Below, one piece after another: positions 19,359 to 26,028 of a stretch of DNA of 64,000 nucleotides. The stretch comes from Apostichopus japonicus (Eukaryota; Echinodermata; Holothuroidea; Aspidochirotida; Stichopodidae), in NCBI RefSeq assembly GCF_037975245.1, contig NC_092577.1:30469398-30533397 (forward strand), in the 5' to 3' direction. The position numbers were made by a program, and so were the translations under genes. Positions within the stretch are counted from its first letter, which is position 1; each line of letters starts with the position of its first letter. The notes beneath the pieces are model-generated. The model saw only the letters and a list, made by a program, of their open reading frames with translations, was not told the DNA's origin and did not search any database.

Positions 19359-19579
19359 GACAGCTGGTTGTCCATGTCCCTGGTCATGCACCATTGACAG
19401 CTCAGATGTTGGCCCAGGCCCAACCACATGAGCAGAAGCACATGTTGGGGGAGCGTCTTTTCTCCATCATCCAGCAGTCTCACGGAGATGTTGCTGGTAA
19501 GATCACCGGTATGCTCTTGGAGATGGACAACGCTGAGCTGCTCCATATGTTGGAGACGGACGAATCCCTCAAAGCAAAG
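19359..19579 (+). pseudogene. MLLE (PABC) exon, module 1, frameshifted at its 5' end
   Basis: Encodes [17 protein letters not shown], a LGERLFSII segment and [18 protein letters not shown], the core of the MLLE domain. Compared with module 2 it lacks 16 nt just after the acceptor, so splicing at 19358/19359 would put it out of frame and reach a stop. This module is probably dead, although its core is intact. Confidence 0.8.
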
Positions 19580-20189
19580 GTGAACTCTTTAAGTTTTACA
19601 TTTGTTTTGGTTGGAGCAGATGTTTACATGTAACCTGAACATTCTTTGTCCTCATTGTCATGATTCCAATCACAATTTAGTGTCTTTGAATTTGAAGAAT
19701 GAAATGCTGTAGTTATTTTATGGCTTTTGGTTTCGATGATAATCGTAACCTTTGCATTCATGATGGATTTTTTATGTGTGTGGGTGTCTGGGTATGTGCG
19801 TTTGTGACACCCAGCTGTAAACACGATATGTGAAGAAGGGAAGGTCGAACCAATTTCATATTTGGTTGGTAGAAGTACTAAAAACGAATGCAGGGATCAA
19901 AGACAATTTATGTTATATATATATCAGTAACCTAAAAACTCTCTAATATTGGATTTTTAAGTTAACCGCTTCCTGTTTGACTGAATACGTTCACTTTGAA
20001 ATTGGCTACTAAGGCCTCACCACAATACACAATAAGTGGCCTTTGATTACGTTAGCACGATATATTATTATTGGAAGCTTGGGTAGATCTCATACTAGGT
20101 ATGAAGGTGTATAACAATAAGTACAAGAATCGTATTTTTTTTGTGGAGGTCAAAGGTCAGTTGGGTCATCAGGGATCAAATTGTGAAAG

Positions 20190-21720
20190 CATTGAATAAA
20201 GTTTCAAATCAAATGTGATAAAATTGTGGGAAAAGCGTTATCTTAAAGCTCTTGGTCGTATTACAATTGTTAGGTCTCTCATGTTACCATGTTTCAACTA
20301 TTATATTATGTCACTTCCGCTGCCTGACTTGGAGTATAGAAATAGGGTAAATTCTTTATTTTTCCGTTTCGTATGGAAAAATAAACCAGACCGTATAAGC
20401 CGTAAACAATTAAGCTCAGTTATGCAGATGGAGGGTTGAATATGATAGATTTTTCTAAACACTGTGAGGCACTCAAAATAAGCACTTTTGGTCGTCTTCT
20501 GAAGAGTGATCATTTCAGCTTCAGCTCTTGTTATTTACGTAAATATAATATTTGCACCGACATGTTTTTTACCAATGGGGATTTCTATATAAAATTAGCT
20601 AGTTTGAGATCTGCTAACCCCTTTTGGAGAAATCTCTTCGAAATAACATATATATTTATTCGAGATGAGCTATCTACCATTAAGGATGATGCGACCATAT
20701 TAACTTTGCCTCTCTGGAATAATGGGCTGATTGAAATTGGTAACAGTCCAGTGTATTACAAGCGCTGGTATGACAAAGGTATCCGTTTTGTTTGCGATTT
20801 TGTCACAATTGATGGCAGGTTTTATAGTTTTGACAATTTCATCCAAAAATATCTTGTTTCCACGAATTTTGTAGAATATTATGGTATTATTAACTCCATT
20901 AAAACTTTTTGGAATGGACCTGCTCTGGATGGGAATATGGATATTGCTTTTCCAAACAATTGCTACTTTAACAAAATGCTTTACAATGGTATGTTCCGTT
21001 CGAAAGATATTTACAACAAGTGACTACAGGAATCGAAGTTGATTCAGAAATCCTATACGAAATGGTGTGGTACCCTCGATATTACTGAGGAAGATTGGTC
21101 TTTTTATTGTTCAGTGCCATTCAAGTGTTCTGGTGATGTTAATTTGAGGTGGTTTCAGTATAGGTTGCTTCAGAGGATTATCCCGTCCAATAAGTATTTG
21201 CATTTAATAAAAGCAATTACTCATGACACTTGTACTTTTTGTCATAGGTATGTTGAGACAATTGAACATTTTTCTATTATTGCCCACTCTCAGTTAGGCT
21301 TTGGAATCATCTCCAAACTTTGTTAAACAATATAGATATTGGTATAGTACTAGACATTAAGACAGTGTTGTTTGGTGCGGACATTGCCAGAGAGCTGAAT
21401 TTAATTAAAATTTTAGTTAAGAAATTCATTTTCAACTGCAAAGTACGGAAAGAAATTCCACTGCAGAATAAGTTACTATTGATTCGGAGGGACTATTTTC
21501 TATTACAAAAAAACATTTTGTTGCGTAATATGAAAAGCAGTGTTTGGAGGAAATATTGGTACCCTTGGTATAATTTTTTACAACTTCAGAATGTATTAAA
21601 ATAAATACTTTTTAGTTTCATCTAGGAATTTTCACTAAGACACCACTAGAGTGGTATATTATGTTAAGTTATAGTTGCAGGATAAAAAAATATAAAAAAA
21701 AGAGAGAAAAAAAAATTTGT
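20190..21720 (+). mobile_element. 5'-truncated LINE, C-terminal ORF2 remnant (Tx1/L1-like)
   Basis: Translated pieces at 20215-20439, 20436-21023, 21039-21326 and 21320-21604 together resemble the end of a LINE ORF2. KRYLKALGRITIVRSLMLP and FRFVWKNKPDRISRKQL, then GGLNMIDF, match the post-reverse-transcriptase region; LRWFQYRLLQRIIPSNKYL and CTFCHRYVETIEH match the RT-linked zinc-binding segment. Frameshifts near 20435 and 21290 and a stop at 21021-21023 show decay. It ends in A-rich sequence (about 21685-21715). It splits the satellite and accounts for the roughly 1.5 kb extra length of this module compared with the next. RT catalytic motifs are upstream of the truncation. Confidence 0.8.
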
Positions 21721-22290
21721 GAAAAATTTGTAAACACTATATCTCAAAATGGGAAGCTTGGGCACCCTCATATTTAGTGTGTAGAAGTAGCACATTGAGT
21801 ACAAGAAGCCTATTGTTTTTGGTGGAGGTCAATTGTCATTTGGGGTCATCAGAGGTTAAAATGTGCAAACATTGTTAACATGATATCTCAATATAGGAAG
21901 CTTGGGCAGATCTCATACTAAGTATGAAGGTGTAAAACATCGAGTAAAAGAATTCTACTGAATTTGCTGGAGGTCAAAGGTCTTTTGAAGCCAACAAACG
22001 CCAAACATTTACCTCACTTCCCTCCTAACTGTCTCTCTACACTAATGTACCTACCGAAACATAATATCGCCAGGGGAGCATATTTGGTATATAATTGTAC
22101 CACATTGCATACAAGAAGCCTAACTTTGTGGGCAAAGGTCAATGGCCATTTGAGTTCACATGGGGTTAAATTGGGAAAACCATGTATTACACGATTTCAA
22201 CAGGGACAGATGTCATGTTTAGTATGTTGATGTATCACATTTAGTACAAGAAGGCTGTTGTTGAGATAAATGGTTATTTCAGGACAGCCT
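21721..22290. repeat. Satellite-like tandem repeat with AGGTCA half-sites, block 1 continued
   Basis: The same monomers resume after the LINE insertion, with ATATCTCAA, TAGTGTGTAGAAGTA and GGAGGTCAAAGGTC words. Confidence 0.8.
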
Positions 22291-22786
22291 GTGTCATTTG
22301 TGAATTTATTGTTTGTCACATCACACTGCTTTTCACTGTATTACTAGGATAAAGTATGTTGTACACCCTCACTATACATTACGTCAGATTCATGAAGAAA
22401 TCTGCTCGTGTTACATCATCGAAAACGCAATGCATTCTGGTTATAGTTGTTATATATATTATATTGTTATTGTTGTTACATGTTGTAATTATGTACGTTG
22501 TTATTTGTTATAGTTGTTTAAGGTCTCACGTATATGGTAAAATTCAAAATTCTTGAAATTTTCCTAGAGAAGTTTTTTCCGGAGCTGGTTTAGCATTTTT
22601 CTTCTTCCTGAATGTTAATAGATTTAGTTCATAATCTTGAGTATCATGTTGCCTTGGATTATCACTTTCCTAAATATTCACCTTTTAAGTAATTGCTTGA
22701 TAATGACTGGATCTCTCCTTTAAGGCTGATTCAATAATTACTTCAAATTTACCATAGAGAATTTTTGTTTTTCTTGTCTCTCCCAG

Positions 22787-22847
22787 ATTTCTGAAGCTTT
22801 GTCTGTTCTGGCCGTTCACCAGCATAAGGAACAGAAGAAGATTTCTG
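22787..22847 (+). CDS. PABPC MLLE helix-5 exon, first copy
   Basis: A 61-nt exon encoding ISEALSVLAVHQHKEQKKIS, equivalent to the last helix of the MLLE domain. The acceptor is TCTCCCAG and the donor GTAAGA, phase 0 in and phase 1 out. Its donor-side intron resembles intron 8 of copy 2, so the exon end appears to be a recombination joint. Confidence 0.7.
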
Positions 22848-25350: not shown

Positions 25351-25411
25351 ATTTCTGAAGCTTTGTCTGTTGTGGCCGTTCACCAGCAGAAGGAACAGAA
25401 GAAGATTTCTG
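25351..25411 (+). CDS. PABPC MLLE helix-5 exon, second copy
   Basis: A 61-nt exon encoding ISEALSVVAVHQQKEQKKIS, 2569 bp downstream of... the first copy at 22787 if measured by start to start (2564 bp), with matching splice sites and phases. Confidence 0.72.
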
Positions 25412-25636
25412 GTAGGACATCTTTTCATTTTACAATCATCAAGTATCAAAAGTTCTAAATATTCTTTCTTAAAGTGTTAGTTACAAGTGTGGTGTCATTT
25501 TAGCTATTACTAATAAATCTAACATTTTCACTATCATTTCTATTTTCCATTACTTCTCACTATCTCTTTTACAGCCTTTAAATATAATGGCACTTTACTT
25601 TCCTAAACATTCTAATCAATTTGTTTCCTCTTTCAG

Positions 25637-25752
25637 GTGTACAAGGGTTACCAAATGCTCCGGGAATGCGTAGAGGTGGAGCCATCCCTACCCAGAGACC
25701 TACCTACAAGTTCCCTCAATCAGCCAGGAGAAACCAAGCTTCTGGTGCAAAG
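25637..25752 (+). CDS. PABPC linker exon, second copy
   Basis: A 116-nt exon encoding VQGLPNAPGMRRGG and [20 protein letters not shown], starting 2565 bp after the first copy. The next acceptor leads straight to the terminal exon at 25990, so the third module lost its MLLE exon. Confidence 0.75.
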
Positions 25753-25989
25753 GTACGTGGAACCAACTTGCAACCAAGCAATTTTCAATCAGTTCTGTCA
25801 TTAGTTTATATCGAATGAAGCATGAATATTCTTGAATACCATGATGCAGGTGGGGTGTGGGTGGGCTTAACCATTTTTTTCATCGGCTGTTGATTCAGAA
25901 GACTATTTTGTCAGTTCTTCAGATGTTATTGAAAAGTATGGTTTGAGTGTAATTGAAAACTGTATTCTGTATTGCGCCTTTGTTTATAG

Positions 25990-26028
25990 GCTTTTAAATC
26001 CTTAAAGTTCCCCAACACCCATGGATAG
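25990..26028 (+). CDS. PABPC copy 1 terminal exon
   Basis: After the acceptor TTTGTTTATAG the frame reads [12 protein letters not shown] and stops (TAG 26026-26028). Orthologous to 47392-47427 in copy 2. Confidence 0.6.
   Translation, partial: AFKSLKFPNTHG

Follow-up and report, generated by a model that had tools for sequence, protein, structure and literature searches.

A probable truncated relic with two MLLE modules in a tandem PABPC array of Apostichopus japonicus

A 64,000-nucleotide stretch of the Apostichopus japonicus genome (hereafter the window; contig NC_092577.1, here C17, C17:30469398-30533397) holds a tandem array of PABPC units, one of which, unit A, carries a repeated block of MLLE-domain exons and is most likely what remains, after truncation, of a gene whose product may once have been a multi-MLLE PABPC. 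The array was mapped by tblastn with human PABPC1 and by comparison of the window with itself. Three units lie on the plus strand: unit A from 17385, unit B at 38294-47427 and unit C from 59271. Their flanks recur at offsets of 21,385 bp (28012/49397) and 21,630 bp (38367/59997), giving a unit spacing of about 21.5 kb. Unit C, followed a short way beyond the window end, proves to be intact, a PABPC with 11 exons, 623 amino acids, four RRMs and one MLLE. Its exons e1-e7, encoding RRM1-RRM4, occupy 59271-63832 (+), and the remaining four (linker A, linker B, MLLE and terminal helix-5) are found 1.3-3.1 kb beyond the window end, at L007:1363-3166, where L007:98 corresponds to window position 64000.

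Seven plus-strand exons can be joined in unit A. The first, MLLE1, runs with its ATG from 19334 to 19579; it is homologous to the other copy from 19359 (exon 19359-19579), is 16 nt shorter than MLLE2, and scores 88.5 bits against the Pfam MLLE model. It is followed by helix-5 exon copy 1 (22787-22847, a chimeric junction exon of 61 nt), linker exon B copy 1 (23072-23187, 116 nt), the MLLE2 exon (23428-23664, 237 nt), helix-5 exon copy 2 (25351-25411, identical to copy 1 at 59/61 sites) and linker exon B copy 2 (25637-25752, 113/116 identical). The last is a short tail exon with the stop codon TAG (25990-26028), which, in the absence of an MLLE and a helix-5 exon there, directly adjoins the former MLLE acceptor region, a structure also seen in unit B at 47392-47427. 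An earlier note on this DNA had described the linker, MLLE and helix-5 exons as frame-preserving modules. Recomputing the borders from the sequence returned the exon lengths it gave, their sum of 414 nt, the match between the outgoing phase of helix-5 and the incoming phase of the linker (phase 1), and the GT/AG borders and open joined frame from 22787 to the TAG at 26026-26028. The last module indeed has no MLLE exon, and the same absence in unit B indicates that this deletion is older.

Read from the ATG at 19334, MLLE1 and the six further exons form a frame of 291 codons ending at 26028, with two MLLE domains in one open frame. Pfam MLLE (PF00658) matches this frame twice with a total of 192.4 bits, which excludes a chance match. 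The KITGMLLE signature is intact in both copies, and MLLE2 together with helix-5 copy 2 matches PABPC1 chains in the PDB with E values down to 3.5e-32. The frame contains no RRM, against the four of a PABPC, and its two MLLE domains differ from the single one that a PABPC, including unit C, carries. Relative to MLLE2, the 16-nt deletion lies near the 5' end of the MLLE1 exon and leaves the 291-codon frame unbroken. The description of module 1 as frameshifted is thus half right: from the ATG it stays in frame into helix-5 copy 1, and the deletion breaks only entry from an upstream linker exon. The earlier note saw no 5' end, but the ATG can open a frame before 22787. That ATG looks incidental, as the sequence around it (19265-19358) matches 24916-25009, part of the MLLE-to-helix-5 intron; an in-frame stop codon begins at 19325, nine bases before it.

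The 5' side of unit A is truncated. An RRM4 (e7) exon fragment at 17385-17505 (+), beginning at the 5' breakpoint and cut at 17505, is 90% identical to 45397-45516 and 92.6% identical to 63580-63699, and retains about 24 of e7's 69 codons. No match to e1-e6 was found in window positions 1-17384 or in the next 20 kb upstream (L010, L011), leaving unit A without RRM1-RRM3 and most of RRM4. The fragment is followed by a stretch shared with unit B (17506-18043, +, 91.9% identical to 45846-46396) and by the remains of linker exon A, internally deleted and followed by its donor (18588-18633, +), as read by eye against the unit B exon at 46628-46880. Relative to the intact, parent-like unit C, essential parts have therefore been lost, as expected of a pseudogene: e1-e6 are gone, and e7 and linker A are truncated. 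Between e7 and linker A sits a copy of the tail exon and 3' untranslated region (17666-17776, 86% identical to 25988-26100). A retroposed 3' end at 17540-17800, considered for its AATAAA and A-run, was rejected, the flank at 17799-17878 also matching 26815-26894 downstream of unit A's tail. We also rejected a compensated reading that would lead from the linker A remnant to MLLE1, since tracing it by hand gives a stop. Tandem repeats of 143-147 bp common to the modules lie in their introns (18695-19142 and 23867-24529), and upstream of MLLE1 there is a leftover piece of an intron from another module. The intron between MLLE1 and helix-5 also contains an insert that module 2 does not have (20190-21717, +), with an A-rich tail and a candidate 8-bp target duplication, which resembles a 5'-truncated element of the non-long-terminal-repeat type. 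The one open reading frame (ORF) tested in it, 20436-21023, had no Pfam match.

The origin of the repeat can be read from the helix-5 exon. In unit C, helix 5 lies in the terminal exon and reads ...VHQQKEQKK, then PPATIPAQ and the stop. Both helix-5 exons of unit A track unit C up to GAACAGAAGAAG, near which lies one change private to copy 1, and continue with the seven nucleotides ATTTCTG and a donor. This donor leads into the intron found behind linker exon A in units B and C, with 86% (copy 1) and 83% (copy 2) identity to that intron in unit B. The helix-5 exon is thus a recombination junction, in which the terminal exon minus its stop was joined to the post-linker-A intron. The junction removes the stop, adds a donor and leaves the phase at 1, as it is on entry into linker B. 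The in-frame sum of 414 nt was set by this one junction and then copied, so no repeated luck is needed.

We propose that the linker B-MLLE-helix 5 block was duplicated in tandem by an unequal, non-homologous exchange, which would have removed the stop and given helix 5 a ready-made phase 1 donor, so that the block could repeat in frame. The phase match would be a single lucky outcome of the junction, with a chance of about one in three, copied with the block. Later exchange, probably aided by the 143-bp intron repeats, would have multiplied and deleted modules; repeats of this length filling the introns, together with the module-intron remnant before MLLE1, make unequal exchange between introns a likely engine. 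The gene in which the duplication arose was probably still working and may have produced a multi-MLLE PABPC for some time; the subsequent loss of its 5' part would have left exons without promoter or RRMs. The locus would then exemplify how a terminal exon turns into an internal, frame-neutral repeat module, with stop loss and donor gain in one junction.

Alternatively, the modules could have diverged in separate full PABPC genes and been joined by later deletion of the intervening DNA rather than by duplication within one gene. Three tandem units are already present, and the linker-MLLE intron of copy 1 is much nearer to unit C (10/230 sites differ) than is that of copy 2 (33/215), both of which such an origin would accommodate. 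However, the same chimeric junction with the same 7-nt filler occurs in both copies, and 13 exon sites differ from unit C in both, with seven further changes private to copy 1 and nine to copy 2. These shared features indicate that the junction predates the split of the copies, and an origin in separate genes is accordingly very unlikely. That the repeat is an assembly artefact is extremely improbable: the two copies have diverged by about 4% in their exons and 9% in their introns, a 1.5-kb insert sets them apart, and the window contains no N within a contig spanning 37.2 Mb.

RRM, MLLE and module searches were run over the 671.6-Mb, 35-contig assembly, and the best candidates were scored. Among these, the RRM part of unit C had 25 matches. 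Seventeen lie on C17 at 30486817-30533229, in the three units and fragments, and 13 of the 17 are at least 80% identical; the other eight, on other contigs at 26-35% identity, are taken for other RRM proteins. The MLLE search returned six matches, namely MLLE1, MLLE2, the unit C MLLE, one more on C17 and two on contig C22. The additional C17 match looks like UBR5, a label that draws on the UBR5 chains among the PDB matches of MLLE2 with helix-5 copy 2. Of the best candidates for the helix-5/linker module DNA, all six matches fall in units A, B and C. In the RRM and MLLE searches, no full PABPC gene other than unit C came up in the assembly.

The C22 matches led to a gene model with three MLLE domains and little else recognisable (L012 = G000:C22:9781000-9788000, +; exons L012:2309-2505, 4317-4441, 4865-4971, 5646-5769 and 6281-6387). 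Its exons were chosen by hand, with the donor of exon 3 shifted by four bases to keep the frame; GT follows the four inner exon ends, AG precedes the four inner starts, and the open frame has 219 amino acids. Pfam MLLE scores 157.3 bits in total over three stretches, and the domains alone score 54.2, 54.5 and 65.1 bits against a cut-off of 27. Apart from MLLE, a single Pfam model exceeds its cut-off, the PABC-type PF23182 (32.4 vs 27), on the same stretches. The gene may have more coding exons upstream, where the ORFs of 10 kb were listed. The three domains are 24-33% identical to one another and 30-36% to the unit C MLLE. Their low mutual identity points to an old gene that arose independently of the duplication in the window, and the intron place and phase shared by domains b and c suggest an old tandem exon duplication.

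Unit B provides a second comparison within the array. It forms a PABPC-like frame of nine exons and 458 codons without an MLLE (38294-47427, +), with GT/AG at all eight introns. Relative to unit C, 63 RRM1 codons are gone through an in-frame deletion by which e1 and e2 have become one exon, four codons are gone in e5, and linker A is 3 nt shorter. The old acceptor region of the intron before linker B is lost, and the replacement acceptor in our model was chosen by hand. Over e1-e7, the ratio of nonsynonymous to synonymous differences per site (pN/pS) between units B and C is 0.52 (22 : 12), a value that mixes selection on C with any on B. The 1341-nt frame stays open in 0.07% of 3000 neutral simulation runs. 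A reading of unit B as a plain pseudogene was not upheld, its frame being open with the correct e4 start, and unit B may be a working MLLE-less paralogue.

The modules of unit A behave differently. The two copies are separated by 14 nonsynonymous and two synonymous changes (pN/pS 2.04), and pN/pS against unit C is 1.37 and 1.54 for the two copies. The comparison of nonsynonymous and synonymous rates that the earlier note had put forward as a check thus gives values of at least 1 in all three cases, which by its own terms speaks against function, but the counts are small. Two synonymous changes out of 16 do not differ from the neutral expectation (binomial p = 0.55), and with only 16 exon differences these selection tests are weak. 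Conserved positions are altered in both copies, including PAM2-contact positions, where module 1 carries Q560H and module 2 carries L614V; the contact positions, including Ile588, follow PMC2854688. Separately, linker exon B compared with unit C (23074-23187 and 25639-25752 vs L007:1846-1959) has 11.5 (copy 1) and 12.5 (copy 2) nonsynonymous changes and 0.5 synonymous, an excess that is unusual in so short an exon.

Taken together, unit A is probably a decaying relic, truncated at its 5' end, within a tandem PABPC array, a reading favoured by its pN/pS of 1.37-2.04 against the 0.52 of unit B. Several observations weigh against it. All six donors and all six acceptors of the seven-exon frame are GT/AG, and the remaining exons contain no disabling stop or frameshift, as a pseudogene often would. 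Between the module copies, exons differ at 16/393 sites (4.1%) and introns at 120/1309 (9.2%; Fisher p = 0.0007), with no indel in the compared exon parts, just outside which the 16-nt deletion of MLLE1 lies. In neutral simulations at the intron rate, five joined exons stay open in 0.6% of 5000 runs and six in 0.08% of 4000. Finally, each module has 16 of the 17 compared PAM2-contact positions as in human, with Ile588 outside the compared list. The simulations are crude, and their indel rates come from introns that include repeat-prone stretches, so the small probabilities may overstate constraint; at an exon-scaled rate the frame is open in 9.6% (five exons) and 4.8% (six exons) of runs. Synonymous sites are also low, with two of about 89 changed (p = 0.019 vs introns, small numbers), suggesting exchange or conversion rather than protein-level selection. 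The comparison of copy 1 with unit C is uneven, introns differing at 24/222, 10/230 and 9/144 sites and exons at about 20/384. This picture can be explained by exchange or conversion, or by selection that acted for a while on an ancestral gene that still worked.

The same evidence bears on the possibility that unit A is instead a functional gene of recent origin, encoding an RRM-free two-MLLE protein that acts as a multivalent PAM2 binder competing with PABPC. The 291-codon frame with its 12 canonical splice sites, two strong MLLE domains, exons less diverged than introns and a frame unlikely to stay open under neutral simulation would all fit such a gene, and the C22 model shows that this architecture occurs in the genome. 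Yet pN/pS exceeds 1 in all three comparisons, the ATG lies in intron-derived sequence nine bases past the start of a stop codon, truncated PABPC fragments surround the frame, and no promoter or first exon was identified, with no search for either beyond the ATG. A functional gene is therefore unlikely. The proposal of a functional poly-MLLE protein accordingly stands as regards a PABPC copy with real frame-preserving modules and RRM-free two-MLLE coding capacity, but its functional part is weakly supported, the copy being 5'-truncated beside an intact single-MLLE gene. Any residual unit A protein would be a two-MLLE peptide binder. A more speculative and quite improbable scenario is that the array is splitting into specialised parts, with C as the full PABPC, B as an open RRM2-4 frame without MLLE, and A as an open two-MLLE frame that lacks RRMs and sequesters PAM2 proteins; with the C22 gene added, this animal would then employ RRM-free MLLE chains as tunable decoys in its poly(A) biology. 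Expression of the unit A frame, or of the three-MLLE gene on C22, would mean that an animal makes RRM-free multivalent PAM2 binders.

Other features of the window were also recorded. Stray RRM3 (e5) exon fragments at 27254-27363 and 48061-48147, downstream of units A and B, are remnants of further PABPC copies. Upstream of the array, an ORF at 7252-7815 (+) matches the secretin-family seven-transmembrane receptor model (7tm_2, E 5e-11). A U2 spliceosomal RNA match of full model length lies at 34635-34827 (48.2 vs the Rfam cut-off of 46 bits), and a tRNA scan gave no matches.

Among known systems, unit A resembles PABPC in having MLLE, helix 5 and linker, but differs from its plan of four RRMs and one C-terminal MLLE, as in unit C, in having no complete RRM and two MLLEs. 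One MLLE per PABPC, as the earlier note had assumed, is true of unit C, but multi-MLLE proteins do exist, as the fungal Rrm4 and the C22 model illustrate. In the literature searched, of which coverage was partial, neither an animal protein with several MLLE domains nor one of the C22 three-MLLE kind was found, and the sole multi-MLLE protein was Rrm4, which has RRMs. According to PMC9249222, Rrm4 of Ustilago maydis has three N-terminal RRMs and three divergent MLLEs with experimentally supported function. As in this binding platform for PAM2-like peptides (PMC9249222), several MLLEs lie in one unit A chain; unlike those described there, the unit A MLLEs are near-identical, number two, come with no RRM and are predicted from the sequence. 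The C22 model is like unit A in being RRM-free and multi-MLLE, whereas its domains are strongly diverged, old and independent. In its spacing of about 21.4 and 21.6 kb, truncation, deletions, insert and pN/pS above 1, unit A resembles tandem duplicates and pseudogenes with partial internal exon duplication, but unlike these its repeated block still has an open frame.

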